In this document: one piece after another, positions 40,192-53,603 of the stretch
How the letters are laid out: each line of letters starts with the position of its first letter
Position numbering within the stretch: position 1 is the first letter of the stretch
Assembly: GCA_016208165.1 (NCBI GenBank)
Contig: JACQYL010000051.1
Span: 1-64,000, forward strand
Source of the DNA: Deltaproteobacteria bacterium
GTDB taxonomy: Bacteria; Desulfobacterota; Desulfarculia; JACQYL01
Direction of reading: 5' to 3'
Length of the DNA stretch: 64,000 nucleotides
Translations under genes and position numbers: made by a program
The notes under the pieces: model-generated
Database searches by the model: none
What the model saw: only the letters and a program-made list of their open reading frames with translations
Told to the model about the DNA's origin: nothing

Positions 40192-40260
40192 TACAAAAAC
40201 GTTGCGTTTCCCGCCCGATTTCGTATGATCTTAACCAGAAATGTCAAAGAATCGAGCATC

Positions 40261-40671
40261 ATGTCCGAAGACTATTTGAAGGCGTTGAAAAAGAAAACCG
40301 CCCGCACGGCCCAAACCTATTTTGAGGGTTACACAGGCGAACGGCCCTTTGATTTGTGGTCCTCGTTCGACAAGGGTTTGGGTATGGATCTGTCTTTGTT
40401 CATCACGGGGCAGATGTACGCGCGTGAGCGCATTCCACATCAGACGCGCCAGATGGTTGCGGTGGCCGCGCTGACGGCTCTCGAACGCACTGAAGAGTTG
40501 CGGCTGCACTTGCATGCCGCCCTGAACGTGGGCTGTTCGCCCCGAGAATTGGCTGAAGTTATTTTTCAGGTTGGCGTCTATGCAGGTATGCCCGTTGTGA
40601 ACGCCGGTTTGAAAACGCTGAAGTCCCTTCTCGAAGAGCGAGGTGAATGGCCTTTATCCGAAGAGGACTGA
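40261..40671 (+). CDS. Carboxymuconolactone decarboxylase-like protein
   Basis: A 136-residue AhpD-fold protein of the carboxymuconolactone decarboxylase family. The core RQMVAVAALTALERTEELRL, then HLHAALNVGCSPRELAEVIF and QVGVYAGMPVVNAGL match the decarboxylase-like branch. The CxxC pair of AhpD peroxidases is absent, so a redox role is unlikely. The classical substrate (from the aerobic protocatechuate path) makes no sense in an anaerobe; the real substrate is unknown. First gene of the operon with the crotonase, gcdA and lyase-like genes. An ATG twelve codons upstream (40225) is an alternative start. Confidence 0.85.
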   Translation: MSEDYLKALKKKTARTAQTYFEGYTGERPFDLWSSFDKGLGMDLSLFITGQMYARERIPHQTRQMVAVAALTALERTEELRLHLHAALNVGCSPRELAEVIFQVGVYAGMPVVNAGLKTLKSLLEERGEWPLSEED

Positions 40672-40858: not shown

Positions 40859-42067
40859 ATGCAAGGACCCATGCGATCTGTACGGCAGTTGTGCTTGGAT
40901 GGACTGGACCTGGGGCAAGAGATATGCCACTGGGAAGATGGCGCGTCCTATCTCTATCGTATACCGCTCCGTTTTCGGGGAAAGAATGGAACTCTGATTT
41001 GTTACTCGAATCCTCCGGTGCACCAGGTCGGCAATCCGGGCCTTGATGCCTATTTGAGCGCCCTGGAAGACCTGTCCATGGATCGGGCGGAAATGGATTT
41101 CCTTCTTCTCTATGGCGCCAATGATCCGGTGCATGCCGGGGGCGACTTGAAAGAGTCGCTACGCCGCCTGGAAACGACCCTGGAGCACAGAAGGGAACTC
41201 GAGGCGCGGAACGCGCCTGCGGAGCAAATCGAACTTCTTTTTAAATGGGCGGACGACCGTCTTAAGAAGGGACTGGCCCTATACAGGGGCATGCGCAGCC
41301 TGGCGGAGGGCATGAGAATCGTGGCCGTTTGCGGAGGGGGTTCCCGGTATGGCGGATCGGCCGAGATAGCGCTAATGGCGGACGTGATCGTCGGCGATTC
41401 ACGTTCGGCGATGTGCTTTAGCGAAGCTCAAATCGGATTGATTCCGGGTTGGGCGGGCATGGGTCGCGTCATAACGAAGGCCGGAACGGGTAATGCCGAA
41501 GCCATGGCGCTCACGGCGCGAGAAACATCCTCCCGGGACCTACTGGCCATTGGTATCTATAACGAAGTCGTGGACGTATCGGATCCCCTGCCGCGTATGA
41601 AGAACACGGGCGACCGCGCAAGAGACAAGCAGGACTACATGGAAGCGCTCCAGGCCAACGACGATTCCACAGGCGGGAAGTTGCTGCCCCGGGCTTTCGA
41701 GTTGGCCGTTATTTCCGGCGAGCATATTCCTTTGCCGGCTCCCGGACAACGCAAGATCCTGGCATCGGATGCCGACATAAGGAAGGAAGTGAACCGGCGC
41801 AAGGACCCCCTCCAGTATTCCAACTCGTGGGGTAAAACGCTCAAAGAGGCTGCGTCTCAATTGGAGACACTCGGTCGCCCGCTCGCTCCCCAATCCATCG
41901 AGGCGATGGAGGAGTTGATGAGCGCAGTGGACCAGGCTGCTTTCGAAGAAGATGCGTTCGTCGAGAAAGAGATGCTCGCTGACGCGGCCTTATATAGAGA
42001 TCCTCGTCTTCTTTCAGGCATAGTAGCCACGTTGGAACAAAAAGTGGCGGACTTCAGGGAGGTATGA
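40859..42067 (+). CDS. Large enoyl-CoA hydratase/isomerase-family protein
   Basis: A 402-residue crotonase-fold protein, longer than the usual 260. The CoA/oxyanion region is seen in LLYGANDPVHAGGDLKESL and, after an insert, CGGGSRYGGSAEIALMADVI; the IGLIPGWAGMGRVI loop is also typical. The usual catalytic glutamates are not obvious, so hydratase, hydrolase or lyase activity is open. The C-terminal 130 residues are helical and unassigned. Start ATG 40859 was chosen because GGAGG lies eight bases before it. Its stop is four bases from gcdA, so the two are coupled and probably work on the same dicarboxylyl- or enoyl-CoA. Confidence 0.85.
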   Translation: MQGPMRSVRQLCLDGLDLGQEICHWEDGASYLYRIPLRFRGKNGTLICYSNPPVHQVGNPGLDAYLSALEDLSMDRAEMDFLLLYGANDPVHAGGDLKESLRRLETTLEHRRELEARNAPAEQIELLFKWADDRLKKGLALYRGMRSLAEGMRIVAVCGGGSRYGGSAEIALMADVIVGDSRSAMCFSEAQIGLIPGWAGMGRVITKAGTGNAEAMALTARETSSRDLLAIGIYNEVVDVSDPLPRMKNTGDRARDKQDYMEALQANDDSTGGKLLPRAFELAVISGEHIPLPAPGQRKILASDADIRKEVNRRKDPLQYSNSWGKTLKEAASQLETLGRPLAPQSIEAMEELMSAVDQAAFEEDAFVEKEMLADAALYRDPRLLSGIVATLEQKVADFREV

Positions 42068-42070
42068 TTC

Positions 42071-43804
42071 ATGCGGCAGTATTTTCAGAATATGGCGCCT
42101 ATAGGCAAGCCCCTCAAAGAAAAAGAAATCCGGAAAATGGAAGCGAACGCGGCCCGGATCAAGGAGGTCGAGGCCCAGGTAAACGAAGCCATTGAGAAGG
42201 TCCGGAATGCGGGTCTCCCCGCCGAAAAGATCAGGCAGCGCGGCGAACAAACGGCGTTCGAACGCCTCGAGCAACTGGTGGATCCCGGCACCTGGCTGCC
42301 TATGAACTCACTCTACGATCCCGAATTCAACCAGGAGGGCAGCACCGGCGTCATCAACGGTCTGGGACGGATTTCAGGACGTTATGCTTCCATCATTGCT
42401 TCCGACAACAAAGTGCTGGCGGGCGCCTGGGTTCCCGGCCAAATGGAAAACATTTTTCGGGCGCAAGACATGGCCGAACAACTGCACATCCCTCTGGTGT
42501 GGGTTTTGAACTGTTCAGGCGTCAAACTGACGGAGCAGGAGGAGGTCTATGCCGGAAGACGATCCGGAGGCCGCACCTTTTTCCGCCACGATGAACTGAT
42601 TCAGAAAGGAATTCCGGTCATCTGCGGCATTTTTGGAACCAATCCGGCCGGCGGCGGGTACCACGGCATCAGTCCGTCCATTATTTTCGCCCATGAGAAA
42701 GCCAACATGGCCGTGGGAGGAGGCGGGATCGTAAGTGGAATGAGCCCGAAAGGGTCCTTCGACCTCGAGGGGGCGGAGCAGATCATCCAAGCCACACGCG
42801 CCTTCAAGGAGGAACCTCCGGGAGGAGTCAAAATCCATTACGATCATACGGGGTTTTTCAGAAAGAAATTTGACACGGAAGAAGGCGTACTGAACGCCAT
42901 CAAGCAATGCATGCAAGGCATGCCGCAGTACGATGCCGAATATTTCCGTGTTGACGAGCCGCGGTCTCCCAAATACGCGCCCGGGGAACTCGATTATGTG
43001 GTGGCGTTCAACCAGAAGATGACCTATTCCATCGAGCAGGTTCTGGCGCGCTTCCTGGACAACAGCGACCACATGGAATATCGACCCGACTTTGGTCCCG
43101 AAGTGTACTGCGGGTTGGCTAAAATGGATGGTTTTCCGGTGGGCGTGATTGCCAACCGGCAGGGCTTCCTGCCCAAGGGCTATCCCGAGTATGCACCCTA
43201 TCCCGGCGTAGGCGGCAAGCTTTACCGACAGGGACTGATCAAGATGAACGAACTGGTCACTCTCTGCGGTCGCGATCGAATCCCCATGATCTGGCTCCAG
43301 GACACATCGGGCATCGATGTCGGCGATATTGCCGAGAAAGCCGAACTTTTGGGGCTGGGACAGTCTCTCATCTATTCCATCGAACATTCGCTGGTTCCCA
43401 TGATGTGTGTCGTTCTCCGCAAAGGTACGGCAGCAGCCCACTACATCATGGGAGGCCCGCAGGCTACTCGGAACAACGCCTTTACACTGGGCGCGCCCAC
43501 CACCGAAATCTACGTAATGCACGGCGAGACCGCTTCGGTGGCCGCATTTGCCCGCCGGCTTGTCAAGGAAAAGGACGCTGGAAAGGATCTGAAGCCGGTC
43601 ATAGATAAAATGAACGCATTGGCTCAGCAGTACTATGATCAGTCTCGACCCGTGTACTGCGCCCAGCGAGGATTCGTCGACGAGATCGTTCCCCTCGCCG
43701 GGATGAGGGATTACGCAGTGGGTTTTGTCAGAAGTGCGTACCAGAATCCTCTCAGCGTGTGTCCGCACCACCAGATGCTGCTTCCCCGCTCTATACGCGG
43801 CTGA
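42071..43804 (+). CDS. gcdA: Glutaconyl-CoA decarboxylase alpha subunit (carboxyltransferase)
   Basis: A 577-residue carboxyltransferase that moves CO2 from glutaconyl-CoA to biotin, giving crotonyl-CoA; in the full complex a membrane subunit then releases CO2 and pumps sodium. The N-terminus RQYFQNMAPIGKPLKEKEI, the blocks DNKVLAGAWVPGQ, NCSGVKLTEQEEVYAGRR, GTNPAGGGYHGISPSIIFAH and LRKGTAAAHYIMGGPQ, and the end CPHHQMLLPRSI follow the GcdA of glutamate fermenters closely. The length also matches GcdA better than methylcrotonyl-CoA carboxylase. The beta, gamma and biotin subunits are not here. GGAGG precedes the ATG. Expected role: late step of benzoyl-CoA breakdown after glutaryl-CoA. A methylglutaconyl-type substrate is also possible given the neighbours. 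Confidence 0.9.
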   Translation: MRQYFQNMAPIGKPLKEKEIRKMEANAARIKEVEAQVNEAIEKVRNAGLPAEKIRQRGEQTAFERLEQLVDPGTWLPMNSLYDPEFNQEGSTGVINGLGRISGRYASIIASDNKVLAGAWVPGQMENIFRAQDMAEQLHIPLVWVLNCSGVKLTEQEEVYAGRRSGGRTFFRHDELIQKGIPVICGIFGTNPAGGGYHGISPSIIFAHEKANMAVGGGGIVSGMSPKGSFDLEGAEQIIQATRAFKEEPPGGVKIHYDHTGFFRKKFDTEEGVLNAIKQCMQGMPQYDAEYFRVDEPRSPKYAPGELDYVVAFNQKMTYSIEQVLARFLDNSDHMEYRPDFGPEVYCGLAKMDGFPVGVIANRQGFLPKGYPEYAPYPGVGGKLYRQGLIKMNELVTLCGRDRIPMIWLQDTSGIDVGDIAEKAELLGLGQSLIYSIEHSLVPMMCVVLRKGTAAAHYIMGGPQATRNNAFTLGAPTTEIYVMHGETASVAAFARRLVKEKDAGKDLKPVIDKMNALAQQYYDQSRPVYCAQRGFVDEIVPLAGMRDYAVGFVRSAYQNPLSVCPHHQMLLPRSIRG

Positions 43805-43970: not shown

Positions 43971-45263
43971 ATGCCAGGTAAACGATTACAGCTCCCCAAA
44001 TCCGTCGAGATCGGGGACATTACGGTTCGCGATGGCTTTCAATCTCTTGAACACTATTTTTCCGTCGAGGAAAAAGTACGTCTGACGGAAATGCTCGTGT
44101 CGGCCGGACTCAAACACATCGAGGTTACCAATTTCGGACATCCCAAGTTCCTGCCCCAGTTCAAGGATGCCGAAGACCTGTTGCTGGGCATGTTCAACAG
44201 CGAGAAAATCGGTCCCATGCTTCGGGCCAATGGAGGCGACGTTTGGGTTACCGCGGTGACCATTAATGAGAAGGCCGTGGTGAGGGCCCTGGACTTCAAG
44301 GCCAAGCACGGCGTGGGTGTGGATTACCTTCTCCAGATGGTGTCCACGGATCCGGCCCATCACCAGACGAACTCCGGGATGGCTCTGGATGATTATTGGA
44401 AGATGACCGAAAGATGCACCAAGATGGCCGCCGAACAGGGCATAGGAATGTGCGGAACGGTGAGCACTATCTGGGGCAGTCCCATCGAGGGAAGCCGGGT
44501 GACCGACCTCCGGACGGGCGTCGAGTTTTCGAAGATCTATCTCGATCTAGGGGCGTCCTACATCGAACAGGCGGATCACGACGGTTCCGGAGATCCTCAG
44601 AGGGTCTACGAGTACTTCACCATGATCTTGGATCCCGCGCTCATGGGAAAGTGGGCGGATCCCAAGTATCACCTGGCGCATTTTCACACGAGCCGCGGCA
44701 TGGGGCTCTCGAATGTGCTCGCCGCCCTGATGGCGGGGATCTATCGATTCGAGTCCACATTGAGCGGCATTGGCGGGCAGCCCGCGAATCTGGTCGACGG
44801 ATCCCTGATCCGGGGAACCGGCAAGTACTATCATAAGGAACACCTTCTCAGCGGTCTGGTCGGTACCGAAGACGTGGTCGTGATGCTCGAGAGTATGGGG
44901 GTCAAAACCGGCATAGACGTAAAGAAGCTGCTGGAAACAGGTCGGGTGTTTCGTGACGAGTATCTCCGCATAACTCCGAAACAGATGGACCAAATGCTTC
45001 AGACGGTCCAAACCTTCAGCGGAATCCCAAGGGAACGTCTCCTGGGCCTCGGAGAGGGCAAAGAATCGGTGGACGGACTGGCGGAGGAGGCTCTGAAGCA
45101 CGTGGCGCAGCCGGAAGAGGACGTGCAGCTGGTGAAAGATAATCTGGAATTGCTTTTTCACTCTCTGGATATCTATGTTCGCACGGGAAGCTGGGGTGTT
45201 TCCCGGGCGGAAACGCTCGTGTCCGGAGTACCTCCGGCTCCCCCGTTAGCTCACTTGCTGTAA
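43971..45263 (+). CDS. HMG-CoA lyase-like (DRE-TIM) protein, catalytic Cys absent
   Basis: A 430-residue HMGL-like TIM-barrel protein. It opens GDITVRDGFQSLEHYFSVEE with the R-D-G metal/substrate motif, and the metal-binding HxH is in LAHFHTSRGMGLSN. In true HMG-CoA lyases the later signature has a catalytic cysteine (GLGGCP); here the same place reads SGIGGQPANLVDG, with Gln instead. The C-terminus is about 120 residues longer than in HMG-CoA lyase. A different cleavage or aldol reaction on an acyl-CoA is therefore likely. ATG 43971 has a strong AAGGAG/AGGAG site. Last gene of the operon; it ends 23 bp from the convergent kinase gene. Confidence 0.85.
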   Translation: MPGKRLQLPKSVEIGDITVRDGFQSLEHYFSVEEKVRLTEMLVSAGLKHIEVTNFGHPKFLPQFKDAEDLLLGMFNSEKIGPMLRANGGDVWVTAVTINEKAVVRALDFKAKHGVGVDYLLQMVSTDPAHHQTNSGMALDDYWKMTERCTKMAAEQGIGMCGTVSTIWGSPIEGSRVTDLRTGVEFSKIYLDLGASYIEQADHDGSGDPQRVYEYFTMILDPALMGKWADPKYHLAHFHTSRGMGLSNVLAALMAGIYRFESTLSGIGGQPANLVDGSLIRGTGKYYHKEHLLSGLVGTEDVVVMLESMGVKTGIDVKKLLETGRVFRDEYLRITPKQMDQMLQTVQTFSGIPRERLLGLGEGKESVDGLAEEALKHVAQPEEDVQLVKDNLELLFHSLDIYVRTGSWGVSRAETLVSGVPPAPPLAHLL

Positions 45264-49247: not shown

Positions 49248-50012
49248 TTATCGATCTTTCCATGCCGGAGGGCGTTTGTTCAAAAAGGCTTCCAGTCCTT
49301 CGGCGGCATCATGCGTCTTCATGAGTTTGTCCATGTACAGCTCTTCTATGCGATCAAGCCCTGTCCCGGGGTCATCCAGGAGTCCACACAAGGCGCTTTC
49401 GCGAGCGAGTTTCATCACAACGGAGCTGTTTCCGATGAACCTTCCGATAAAGGACTCCACGGCGGACTCGAACTCGTCCGCCGGCGCAACTTGGTTGATC
49501 ATCCCCGCGCGTTCGGCCGCTTCCGCGGACCAGGTATCGCCGCTCAAAATGAATTCCATGGCTTTTTTCCTGCCGATAATGCGGGGCAGGATCAGCGCGG
49601 CGATGGGTGGGAAGACTCCGACTTTGATCTCGGGTTGGCCGAATTTGGCCTTCTCTGAAGCAATGACCATATCGCAGTAGACGGCCAATTCGCACCCGCC
49701 ACCCAGTGCGGCTCCCTGCACGGCCGCTATGCTTGGAACGCCGAGTTCGTCCATACGTCGGAACATGCCATGAAATGCATCGATCATTTTAGGCATCAGG
49801 TCACCCACGTGCTCGCCCACATCGACCCCGGCGGAAAAGGCCTTCCCTTCGGCTCTGAACACCAGCAGCTTCGGAGGTTCACTCTTCAGCCTTTCCAGCT
49901 CCCGGTTCACTTCATTCATCATCTCGATATTCAAAACGTTGAGCGGAGGACGATTTAGGATAATCGTGGCTACGCCGTAGCTGGAAGCGGTCAGAATATG
50001 CCGGTAACTCAT
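49248..50012 (-). CDS. bamR: Cyclohexa-1,5-diene-1-carbonyl-CoA hydratase
   Basis: A 254-residue crotonase-fold hydratase (BamR/Dch) that adds water to cyclohexa-1,5-diene-1-carbonyl-CoA, the product of benzoyl-CoA reductase, to give 6-hydroxycyclohex-1-ene-1-carbonyl-CoA. Oxyanion-hole blocks are EGKAFSAGVDVGEHV and AVQGAALGGGCELAVYCDMV, and FGQPEIKVGVFPPIAALILP is characteristic. Assignment rests on these blocks plus the adjacent genes for the next two steps (bamQ, bamA). ATG 50012 has AAGGAG nine bases upstream. A 355-bp gap separates it from bamA, so it may have its own promoter. Confidence 0.9.
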   Translation of the reverse strand: MSYRHILTASSYGVATIILNRPPLNVLNIEMMNEVNRELERLKSEPPKLLVFRAEGKAFSAGVDVGEHVGDLMPKMIDAFHGMFRRMDELGVPSIAAVQGAALGGGCELAVYCDMVIASEKAKFGQPEIKVGVFPPIAALILPRIIGRKKAMEFILSGDTWSAEAAERAGMINQVAPADEFESAVESFIGRFIGNSSVVMKLARESALCGLLDDPGTGLDRIEELYMDKLMKTHDAAEGLEAFLNKRPPAWKDR

Positions 50013-50367
50013 AATGGTCTCCTTACACGGGATGGTTTTGAGGCTACGGTCCGGCCCCGGGATCCTGCAGACGGCCGTGACAACCTCGCGAAATGATCTG
50101 GAACGATCCGGCCCGGTCGCCAAGCAAAAACCAGGCCGAATCGGAAAACTCCGACAAGGGTCCCCGATACCGGTCTTTGCACTCCGTTCGGAATCCCTCG
50201 AGCGATCAAGCGCCCATGGTTACCGCATGGCCTCTTGCGTGAGGCCGCCACCGCGCAGGCGCTCCGTGCCGACACGATCCTTCGCTTGTAAAAAGCTCGG
50301 AGAGCGAACGGCCCATCGTCGTTGGGAGTACTGAAACGCGTCCCGAATCGAAACCGGGGTCATGACA
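50013..50367. other. 355-bp gap between bamA and bamR
   Basis: No protein-like frame on either strand and no clear promoter or terminator. It breaks what would otherwise be a compact bamQ-bamA-bamR operon. Confidence 0.4.
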
Positions 50368-51498
50368 TTATCTCTGTCGTTTTCCCAAAACCTCTTCGAA
50401 GAAGTTATCGTCGAATAGATCCCCGTTTGCGATCTTTTGACGCAGCCTTACGAAATCAATGGTGTCCCGACCCGTGATCTTCTTGGTGTTAAACGCGTTG
50501 AAGCCCAGGAAGGCTTCCCCCATCATGTTGGCGGCCAACCAATGGCGATTGGGCAACTTCATCTGATCCCAGAAGAATTTCTTTTTGGCCCTGACGCTGT
50601 CTATGGACTTGATCAGGCATCCGGGAAACAGGTTTGTAAAGGACCAAATGATGTTGTCCACTTCCTTATCCAGCAAGGAGAAGTCAATTTCGCATGTCTT
50701 GATGAACTCTCTCCCCTCTTTCAGTTCATCGCCTACTTTAGACTCTCCATAGACAATCTCCCCGTCCTCGACAAACGTGTCGGTGATTACCTGCGGGTTG
50801 CGGTAAAGCTGACCGGCTTTTCTGAGTACGGGCGTCGACTTGGAAATCAGCCCCTTGAGCTTCATCTTATAGGCGGACCAGAGTTCGCACGAAATGCAGT
50901 TCCACATAGCGTCTTCAATGGAGAGCATCCAGGGCAGAAAATCCGACGAGCCACCATCGGGAGCGGACCCGTGACGCGGGCCGGCCTGTCCGAAGATCGC
51001 GAGGTCGGACGAAATGGTCAGATCACAGGCCATCCCGATTTCCTGGCCGCCGGCGACCCTCATGCCGTTGACCCTGCAAATGGTGGGTTTCTTGCAATTC
51101 AGTATGGCGTCCACCATGCCGTTGAACAGGTCCATGTATTCGCCATATTCGTTCGGGCGTTTGCTGTAGTATTCGGCATATTCTTTGGTGTTCCCGCCGG
51201 TACAAAAGGCTTTGTCCCCCGTCCCGGTAAACACCACCGCCACCACGCTGCGATCCAAAGAGGCGGAGGAGAATCCTGCAATAACGCCTTTTACCATTCC
51301 CGTGGTATACGAATTATATTGGGCAGGGTTGTTCAGACGCACCCATGCGGTGTACAGACCTTCAATTTCCTTTCCCTTGGGATCTAATACGGGTTTCTTT
51401 TCGTAGACCGTACAGGGGGCTTCCGTTCCCCAATACTCGCCTCCCATCAGACTATGGTCTTTGAGCTGATCGTCTTTTCCGATCCAATCCAAACTCAT
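50368..51498 (-). CDS. bamA: 6-oxocyclohex-1-ene-1-carbonyl-CoA hydrolase (ring-opening)
   Basis: A 376-residue crotonase-family hydrolase (BamA/Oah) that adds water and cleaves the alicyclic ring to 3-hydroxypimelyl-CoA. It is the usual marker gene for anaerobic aromatic breakdown and unrelated to outer-membrane BamA. Diagnostic blocks: GGEYWGTEAPCTVYEKKPVL, VRLNNPAQYNSYTTGMVKGV, GDKAFCTGGNTKEYAEYYS, RVNGMRVAGGQEIGMACDLT, AGPRHGSAPDGGSSDFLPW and the C-terminal GRDTIDFVRLRQ. Length is standard. AGGAGGG precedes the ATG, and the gene follows bamQ by 28 bp, forming one operon. Confidence 0.97.
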   Translation of the reverse strand: MSLDWIGKDDQLKDHSLMGGEYWGTEAPCTVYEKKPVLDPKGKEIEGLYTAWVRLNNPAQYNSYTTGMVKGVIAGFSSASLDRSVVAVVFTGTGDKAFCTGGNTKEYAEYYSKRPNEYGEYMDLFNGMVDAILNCKKPTICRVNGMRVAGGQEIGMACDLTISSDLAIFGQAGPRHGSAPDGGSSDFLPWMLSIEDAMWNCISCELWSAYKMKLKGLISKSTPVLRKAGQLYRNPQVITDTFVEDGEIVYGESKVGDELKEGREFIKTCEIDFSLLDKEVDNIIWSFTNLFPGCLIKSIDSVRAKKKFFWDQMKLPNRHWLAANMMGEAFLGFNAFNTKKITGRDTIDFVRLRQKIANGDLFDDNFFEEVLGKRQR

Positions 51499-51526
51499 TG
51501 TAGTTCCCTCCTGTCTATGACAAGGC

Positions 51527-52636
51527 TTAAAAGTCGGGCTCCAAAACGATCCTTCGAGTGAATTTGCCGGCGTGCTGATCTTCCAAAACCTGCACGATCT
51601 TGCTCATGGGGCGGGTTTCAAGGAAAGGCTCGATCTGGACTTTGCCCGATTGCACCAGTTCCAGCACCTTGGGATAATATTCGGGCAAGCACGCCCAAGT
51701 GCCTATGATTTCCGCATCGAAGGCCATTAGGCGGCTGAACATATATTCGCTCGAATGCAGACCGAAACCGATAATGACGAGCTTGCTCACAAAGGTCAGG
51801 AGAGCCAGTCCCATTTGCTGACCGATTTGCGTGCCGCTGCATTCGAATATTTTCAGGCCGTACCCGGCTTGCACGCCGTTCGCCTTACATACATCCTTGA
51901 ATTCGTTTCGAATGGCTTGGACGTCCTTGTCCGCCGTGTGAATGGCGAGGTCCGCACCGTACTTGAGGCTCCGTGTCAGTTTTTCTTCGTCCCGCTCCAG
52001 GCCTATAACGGTCTTGGCTCCCAAGGCTTTTACGATCTGCACCATGTAGACGCCGATACCTCCTCCGGCGCCGATAACGACAGCCACGTCGCCATTGGTC
52101 ACGTCGGCGCGTTTCGCGGCCTGGTACGGAGTGGTGGCGGCGTCCGCTATAACGGCATAATGGGACAATGGGAGTCCCCGGGTGTCTTCGATAACGCAAA
52201 GTCCGTCGGAAGGCACGGGGACGTGGGACGAGAAACCGCCGTATATGTCGTGGGAATTGCCCAGCATTCTCTGTTTGAGGCAACGATTGCCACGATGCCT
52301 GTCGCAGATTTCACAGCGGCCGCAGGGCATGACCGCGGGTATGAGAACATTCTTTCCGATCATGTCGGATTTTCCGGCAATCACCGTCCCGCTGACTTCG
52401 TGTCCCAGACTCAAGGGAGGTTTGTTGACCGTAGGTACTCCGTCATAGAAGTATCCCAGGTCAGTGTGGCACACCCCACAACCGGCGACTTCAACTAGAA
52501 CTTCACCCTCCTTAAGCTCGGGAACCGGAATCTTCTTCAGCTCAATAAGACCGGGGATTTTCTGCCCCGTTTCCTTATCCTTAGCCCATGGCCGCACCAT
52601 CTGCCACGTCTGGATCGTCTGTGGAATGCCTGCCAT
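51527..52636 (-). CDS. bamQ: 6-hydroxycyclohex-1-ene-1-carbonyl-CoA dehydrogenase
   Basis: A 369-residue zinc-dependent medium-chain alcohol dehydrogenase (BamQ/Had) that oxidises the product of BamR to 6-oxocyclohex-1-ene-1-carbonyl-CoA with NAD+. Catalytic zinc site: GCGVCHTDLGYFYDG and GHEVSG. Structural zinc: CGRCEICDRHRGNRC. Rossmann motif VVIGAGGGIGVYMVQIVKAL. The blocks WQMVRPWAKDKETGQ and EYMFSRLMAFDAEIIGTW are typical of Had. A strong GAGGAGG site precedes ATG 52636. Directly upstream of bamA, whose substrate it makes. Confidence 0.96.
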   Translation of the reverse strand: MAGIPQTIQTWQMVRPWAKDKETGQKIPGLIELKKIPVPELKEGEVLVEVAGCGVCHTDLGYFYDGVPTVNKPPLSLGHEVSGTVIAGKSDMIGKNVLIPAVMPCGRCEICDRHRGNRCLKQRMLGNSHDIYGGFSSHVPVPSDGLCVIEDTRGLPLSHYAVIADAATTPYQAAKRADVTNGDVAVVIGAGGGIGVYMVQIVKALGAKTVIGLERDEEKLTRSLKYGADLAIHTADKDVQAIRNEFKDVCKANGVQAGYGLKIFECSGTQIGQQMGLALLTFVSKLVIIGFGLHSSEYMFSRLMAFDAEIIGTWACLPEYYPKVLELVQSGKVQIEPFLETRPMSKIVQVLEDQHAGKFTRRIVLEPDF

Positions 52637-52823
52637 TCGTTGCCTCCTCTCTGACTTGAATTCTATCTGTCCATACCGTACGGCGCTGCGCAGTCTTACC
52701 TGGTTTAATCGAAAATGGGTGTATCCGGCGCGTCCCTTTGCCTGCGCCTGATGCTTTTCCGGGAGGCAGCGCCTTCCTAATCCGCGGCCCCACTTTTCAG
52801 GGCACGGCGTTTCATCGGGCGAA

Positions 52824-53576
52824 TCAGATCATTCCATATCCGCCGTCAACGCAAACTAGCTGGCCGGTGATGTAATTGGCGTCGTCCGAGGCCAGGAATA
52901 CGAACGCGGGCGTAATATCATCGGGTTCCGCGAAGCGCCTGAGCAGTATCCGGTTCATATAAATATCACGGAGTTTCTCGTCGGTGCGGATCTTTTCCGT
53001 CATATCGGTGGCAACGATGCCCAGCGAAATCGTATTTGCGCACACATTGAACCGCGCCAGTTCTCGGGCTACGCTCTTGGTGAAAGCGATGATTCCGCCT
53101 TTGGCGGCGCTGTAGTTCACTTGGCCCACGGTGCCCACGATTCCCGCCACGGAGGTCACGTTGATGATTTTGCCCGAATTCTGCTCTTTCATGAACAACG
53201 CGGCCGCCTGCGTGCAGAAGAAAGCGCCTTTCAGATGCACGTCCAAAACCCGATCCCATTCCTCTTCACTCATTTTGATCAACAGGTTCGGGCGGGTTAT
53301 GCCGGCATTATTCACCAGGATGTCGACGCTTCCGAAGCGCTCCTTGGCGGCGGAGATGAGGCTGTTGGCCTCCGCTCTGTCGGACACGTCCGCCATGTGC
53401 AATATCGCCTGACTCCCAAGGGCCTCGATTTCTTTGACCGTAGCCTCGGCAGCGGCCTGGTTGCTCGAGTAGTTGACGACAACCCGTGCTCCTTCTCGCG
53501 CATAGGCAATAGCCACGGCCCGGCCAACACCACGACTGGCGCCCGTGACAACGGCGGTCTTGCCTTTCAGTTTCAT
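52824..53576 (-). CDS. Short-chain dehydrogenase (FabG-like 3-oxoacyl reductase)
   Basis: A 250-residue classical SDR. NAD(P) motif TGASRGVGRAVAIAYAREGA, the NNAG block, catalytic Ser in NVTSVAGIVG and YxxxK in YSAAKGG. The sequence and length are close to FabG-type 3-oxoacyl-ACP/CoA reductases. In this setting it could oxidise 3-hydroxypimelyl-CoA or a related 3-hydroxyacyl-CoA made by the bam enzymes. Start ATG 53576 was chosen over an ATG three codons earlier, which overlaps the GGAGG site. First gene of the minus-strand series; two direct repeats lie in its promoter. Confidence 0.92.
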   Translation of the reverse strand: MKLKGKTAVVTGASRGVGRAVAIAYAREGARVVVNYSSNQAAAEATVKEIEALGSQAILHMADVSDRAEANSLISAAKERFGSVDILVNNAGITRPNLLIKMSEEEWDRVLDVHLKGAFFCTQAAALFMKEQNSGKIINVTSVAGIVGTVGQVNYSAAKGGIIAFTKSVARELARFNVCANTISLGIVATDMTEKIRTDEKLRDIYMNRILLRRFAEPDDITPAFVFLASDDANYITGQLVCVDGGYGMI

Positions 53577-53603
53577 AAATCGCATCCTCCAACGCCTCTG
53601 AAA

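Follow-up and report, generated by a model that had tools for sequence, protein, structure and literature searches.

How does a protein of the HMG-CoA lyase branch work once the catalytic cysteine is gone, and what does it act on? The question is raised by a gene at 43971-45263 on the forward strand of the window, the whole 64,000-nucleotide stretch of Desulfobacterota DNA analyzed here. Its open reading frame starts with an ATG at 43971, just behind a strong ribosome-binding site, AAAGGAGTAGGAGA, and ends at 45263; it is a real gene and encodes a 430-residue HMG-CoA-lyase-like protein free of the catalytic cysteine, here called HMGL-Q.

Fold and family assignment

HMGL-Q scores 91.7 bits against PF00682 (HMGL-like; Pfam gathering score, 29), which places it in the DRE-TIM metallolyase superfamily. 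The metal-binding motifs of this superfamily are kept, with R20-D21 on strand 1 and the HxH pair H237/H239 on strand 7, and is conserved throughout the QL proteins, defined as homologs with Gln at the position of human Cys266 and Leu at that of Asn275; QN proteins have the same Gln with Asn275 kept. Solved HMG-CoA lyases rank first for HMGL-Q both by sequence (about 27% identity) and by fold. The top 14 Foldseek matches in the PDB are all HMG-CoA lyases (TM 0.84 to 0.90 by target length), with transcarboxylase 5S (1rqb) well behind them on overall fold (6.0e-13 versus 6.7e-22). The AlphaFold model of HMGL-Q has a mean pLDDT of 92. The Claisen branch, with the isopropylmalate and homocitrate synthases, was rejected, its best score of 43 bits falling far short of the cut-off, 463.

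Against the curated HMG-CoA lyase model NF004283 (cut-off, 246 bits), HMGL-Q reaches 139 bits and the QL protein of Desulfococcus multivorans 132 bits. HMGL-Q departs from HMG-CoA lyases in two defining residues and falls short of the curated score, and therefore it is not properly classified as one, even if it probably works like one.

Changes in the active site

The canonical GxGGCP motif reads GIGGQP in HMGL-Q (residues 266-271; 44766-44783), whereas R20-D21-G22 and H237-F-H239 are present, just as the preliminary description of this locus had reported. Gln270 stands at the position of human Cys266. A second loss had been missed. In HMG-CoA lyase, Arg41, Glu72, Tyr167, and Cys266 are the most critical residues, and Asp42, Asn275, His233, and His235 are the Mg ligands (PMC6941031). 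HMGL-Q keeps three of the four ligands and has Leu296, which is invariant in QL, in place of Asn275. Two further QL-specific invariants are His203 and Asp204, at the positions of human Thr205 and Ile206; Thr is invariant at the former position in Cys-type and QN proteins. The Tyr167 position is Thr163 in HMGL-Q, and Tyr is not conserved there among Cys-type lyases either.

The protein had also been described as about 120 residues longer than usual at its C-terminus. The extension is real, but it comprises only about 93 residues past residue 337, where the alignment to 1ydo ends (about residues 338-430; 44982-45260), and is mostly helical in the AlphaFold model. The remaining extra length is internal; part of it, about 17 residues, separates the Gln from the conserved motif that follows, so that Q270 and L296 are 26 residues apart compared to 9 between C266 and N275 in the human enzyme. 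Right after the Gln, this insertion carries a GTGxYY sequence (residues 282-287; 44814-44831) that is conserved in the QL clade, with G282, T283, G284, Y286, and Y287 at 97 to 100% in both QL groups, and absent from Cys-type lyases. Of the internal segments of the AlphaFold model, this loop has the lowest certainty (block mean, 57), and this low certainty might fit a mobile lid.

Phylogeny of the Gln-type proteins

Whether the Gln is fixed among homologs, a check proposed when the motif was first noted, can be answered in the affirmative, since every QL and QN homolog examined has Gln at this position. In a tree of 112 rows, all 65 homologs lacking the Cys (63 with Gln, 2 with Trp) lie on one side of a branch with an SH-aLRT support of 89; the 43 QL proteins lie on one side of a starred branch (98), with HMGL-Q inside a starred subclade. 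Because the tree was rooted at its midpoint, we infer, rather than observe, the direction of the Cys/Gln change. Read from an alignment on human HMGCL, the string of active-site residues R41, D42, E72, D204, H233, H235, C266, N275, E279, and D280 is RDEDHHQLED in HMGL-Q and 59 relatives; the pair for C266 and N275 is CN in canonical lyases and QN in another group. Chance or sequencing error was rejected as the source of the Gln, which is fixed in a supported clade.

The QL proteins are thus a well-supported new active-site variant, the loss of the catalytic Cys being fixed in one clade within the PF00682/HMGL fold. The preliminary description had gone further, to a new reaction, which is unproven. 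The literature searched, which took in few subscription papers, contained no description of an HMG-CoA lyase without the cysteine or of a subgroup of the DRE-TIM superfamily with Gln.

The two relatives with Trp at the Cys266 position (L119:9450-10511 and L120:8296-9417) both have Leu at that of Asn275. Separately, a divergent HMGL homolog with R-E for R-D and with Cys and Asn kept is encoded beside, or divergently from, HMGL-Q in several genomes (L011:8472-9419, L113:8333-9343, L158, and L160-L164).

Gene neighborhoods

In the window, HMGL-Q lies in a row of forward-strand genes. The row is headed by a CMD/AhpD-like protein (PF02627) at 40258-40671, with its start inferred and the longest ORF from 40225. 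It is followed by CROT407 at 40859-42067, an unusual crotonase-family protein of about 402 residues (PF00378, 46.9 bits; start inferred from relatives, longest ORF from 40844), and by a 577-residue biotin-dependent carboxyltransferase of the glutaconyl-CoA decarboxylase alpha (GcdA) type at 42071-43804, which scores 738 bits to 1PIX. Close relatives of HMGL-Q (62 to 73% identity) have the common order CROT407, GcdA-type carboxyltransferase, HMGL-Q, with an ACAD, a MeaB-like GTPase, and an MmdA/PccB-like carboxyltransferase added upstream at three such loci. The GcdA-type gene adjoins HMGL-Q in L003-L008, L011, and L113, and a CROT407 partner 48 to 53% identical occurs in the same gene order in L003-L008 and L011; CROT407 is the probable enoyl-CoA hydratase of the operon. 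Small CMD/AhpD-like proteins (50 to 65% identical) recur next to HMGL-Q (L106:11020-11352, L118:8628-8960) or GcdA (L242:9344-9682).

Among 53 QL loci, a crotonase-family (enoyl-CoA hydratase-type) gene is found within 6 kb of the QL gene in 50 and a carboxyltransferase gene in 33; an isovaleryl-CoA-DH-like ACAD lies within that distance in 16 and acetoacetyl-CoA synthetase in 12. Together, these form the gene set of isovalerate/leucine oxidation via 3-methylcrotonyl-CoA, 3-methylglutaconyl-CoA, and HMG-CoA. The identity given to the ACAD comes from its cluster and from orthology; it is not named by any NCBIfam model that scores above cut-off. One ACAD ortholog goes with both the MccB/EchA/HMGL-Q and the CROT407/GcdA/HMGL-Q sets. 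A canonical Cys-type lyase is encoded beside the QL protein in L045, L102, L104, L110, L112, and L116.

The GcdA family is known for glutaconyl-CoA. In a GcdA tree, operon-linked and glutaryl-linked copies intermingle, so that roles on glutaconyl-CoA and 3-methylglutaconyl-CoA are not separated. Elsewhere in the window, at 49248-53585, are SDR, Had, Oah, and Dch genes of the benzoyl-CoA pathway, with copies 85 to 91% identical on another contig of the same genome (C94:25026-31479); there, Had and Oah form one 637-residue ORF, and a GcdA copy 94% identical to that of the HMGL-Q row lies alongside in this benzoyl-CoA-type cluster.

Genomes without a Cys-type lyase

We searched for Cys-type lyases in 28 genomes, namely, 27 picked for carrying a QL protein and that of the window (G000). 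No RD..C..N lyase was found in nine of these 28 (G000, G265, G413, G325, G415, G285, G162, G130, and G344), which are 94 to 100% complete and six of which have only a distant RE-type homolog. Acetoacetyl-CoA synthetase is present in all 12 genomes tested for it, that of the window genome scoring above the TIGR01217 cut-off. The missing Cys-type lyase and the presence of this synthetase suggest that HMGL-Q makes acetoacetate in such genomes. One genome with a QL operon, G107, yielded no acyl-CoA carboxyltransferase at E<1e-40, and thus HMG-CoA may not be the substrate there.

The biotin carboxylase C-terminal domain (PF02785) was not found in five genomes that are 92 to 99% complete (G000, G074, G111, G146, and G227), all of which carry several biotin-type carboxyltransferases; it is present in 13 of 14 control genomes and in the other seven genomes tested. 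Carboxylation in the genomes lacking it may proceed by transcarboxylation or by a sodium-driven reverse decarboxylase.

Proposed reaction and alternatives

D. multivorans DSM 2059 (G218) carries a QL gene at 3210366-3211307, flanked by AacS (acetoacetyl-CoA synthetase), MccB, EchA, and ACAD; it is the only HMGL gene within 20 kb around 3.21 Mbp, and Cys lyases are encoded elsewhere in the genome. According to the genome paper, AcsA6, EchA2, Mcc, and HmgL of a cluster at 3.20 Mbp are formed exclusively in 3-methylbutanoate-adapted cells (PMC5109826). By map position, this HmgL appears to be the QL gene. Genome context and these published proteomics assign the HMGL-Q family to the point in isovalerate breakdown at which HMG-CoA is cleaved, which favors the same or a very similar retro-aldol reaction.

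Our best explanation, to which we give about an even chance of being right, is that HMGL-Q is a cysteine-free lyase of the HMG-CoA lyase branch that has a rebuilt metal site and carries out either HMG-CoA cleavage or a closely similar retro-aldol reaction in anaerobic isovalerate/leucine oxidation. From 3-methylcrotonyl-CoA, the carboxyltransferase and the crotonase-family hydratase would probably make 3-hydroxy-3-methylglutaryl-CoA or a closely related 3-hydroxyacyl-CoA; HMGL-Q would then cleave HMG-CoA into acetyl-CoA and acetoacetate by a divalent-metal-assisted retro-aldol reaction, and acetoacetyl-CoA synthetase would reactivate the acetoacetate. Proton transfer and metal binding could be taken over by His203/Asp204, by the Gln, or by a Tyr of the GTGxYY loop. 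An identical HMG-CoA reaction sits less easily with the Cys lyase in some QL operons, the absence of an acyl-CoA carboxyltransferase match in G107, and the low NF004283 score; in D. multivorans, the Cys lyases elsewhere mean that a duplicate activity is not needed.

We consider a distinct retro-aldol reaction, or its reverse, on another 3-hydroxyacyl-CoA of the same or a neighboring pathway a credible but less probable account; in genomes with both forms, HMG-CoA would then be left to the Cys-type lyase. Candidate substrates would include 3-hydroxy-3-methylbutyryl-CoA, giving acetone and acetyl-CoA, and 3-hydroxyglutaryl-CoA, giving malonate semialdehyde and acetyl-CoA. Cys and Gln forms share one operon in L045, L102, L104, and L110, G107 has the gap just mentioned, and the four invariant QL changes at or beside the active site (C266Q, N275L, T205H, and I206D) exceed the needs of a silent swap. 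Moreover, GcdA relatives of known function use glutaconyl-CoA, and the benzoyl-CoA-type cluster of the window genome includes the 94% identical copy. Yet nine genomes have a QL protein and no Cys lyase, linkage to acetoacetyl-CoA synthetase recurs, and the ACAD found by CROT407/GcdA/HMGL-Q is the isovalerate-cluster ortholog, not the glutaryl-CoA one. The isovalerate-specific HmgL of D. multivorans (PMC5109826) also speaks against a separate substrate.

In a more speculative proposal, which we think rather unlikely, the QL proteins would be a catalytic type of their own among DRE-TIM lyases, using His203/Asp204 and a mobile Tyr-bearing loop for a retro-aldol on a different 3-hydroxyacyl-CoA (3-hydroxyisovaleryl-CoA, for instance) when branched-chain acids are broken down anaerobically, in some organisms without a carboxylation step.

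It is improbable that HMGL-Q is retained as a noncatalytic or regulatory partner that forms a complex with another enzyme, be it the Cys-type lyase, the hydratase, or the carboxyltransferase. Such a role would agree with the loss of the catalytic Cys and one Mg ligand, the constant adjacency to a hydratase, and the extra helical C-terminal region. However, the equivalents of Arg41, Asp42, Glu72, Asp204, both His, and many pocket residues are 97 to 100% conserved in QL, the new invariant polar residues H203, D204, Y286, and Y287 are the opposite of decay, and HMGL-Q occurs in the nine genomes without any Cys lyase.

The only Cys residues of HMGL-Q are C149 and C161, and the latter, on strand 159-165, is found in 100% of the query clade and 86% of the rest of QL. 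That C161, which may face the barrel interior since the AlphaFold model has it on a barrel strand two residues before the Tyr167 equivalent, has replaced Cys266 in an ordinary HMG-CoA lyase is very doubtful, because C161 is incompletely conserved in QL, is not the majority residue in QN proteins that likewise lack Cys266, and by position should sit deeper in the barrel than the metal.

Significance and comparison with known systems

The QL clade is widespread, in that about one in four of the sampled Desulfobacterota genomes has a match at some 44% identity or higher, and cysteine-free HMGL relatives are carried by a large group of bacteria living without oxygen. Mechanistic models of HMG-CoA lyase are based on Cys266 and the four Mg ligands; a clade that lacks the Cys and one ligand and apparently works in the same pathway would reveal how acid/base chemistry can be rebuilt within the superfamily. 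The annotation of anaerobic isovalerate/leucine oxidation depends on a protein whose assigned reaction is predicted. Where the GcdA-linked version occurs in genomes in which no biotin carboxylase was detected, carboxylation might be driven by transcarboxylation or a sodium gradient.

HMGL-Q has the TIM-barrel fold in common with HMG-CoA lyase (EC 4.1.3.4; human HMGCL, 2CW6/3MP3; Bacillus YngG, 1YDO; NF004283/PRK05692), retains the equivalents of Arg41, Asp42, Glu72, Asp204, His233, and His235, and lies in the same leucine/isovalerate neighborhood. In contrast to that enzyme, it has Gln for Cys266, Leu for Asn275, His for Thr205, a GTGxYY loop insertion of about 17 residues, and a helical C-terminal extension.

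The HmgL of the D. multivorans 3-methylbutanoate cluster belongs, by map position, to the same QL clade, with Gln/Leu and 49% identity to HMGL-Q over 321 residues. It is annotated as a lyase, and the missing cysteine goes unmentioned in the available part of the paper (PMC5109826). Its C-terminus is shorter than that of HMGL-Q, and its partners are MccB and an ordinary EchA instead of GcdA and CROT407.

HMGL-like proteins whose role their authors left unexplained are induced by acetone in Desulfococcus biacutus and Desulfotomaculum species (PMC7888143, PMC8084838). The window genome has a second Gln-type paralog with Asn275 kept (L002; G000:C32:35846-57499, also L042 and L138), in a cluster with a ThDP enzyme, a benzoyl-CoA-reductase-like subunit, 2-oxoacid:ferredoxin oxidoreductase, carboxyltransferase, AMP-ligase, thiolase, and an oxaloacetate-decarboxylase beta-like subunit, which much resembles the published acetone-induced clusters. 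The likeness is one of neighborhood: the acetone-induced proteins, also from sulfate reducers, are encoded near carboxyltransferase, thiolase, and AMP-ligase genes, as is this second paralog.
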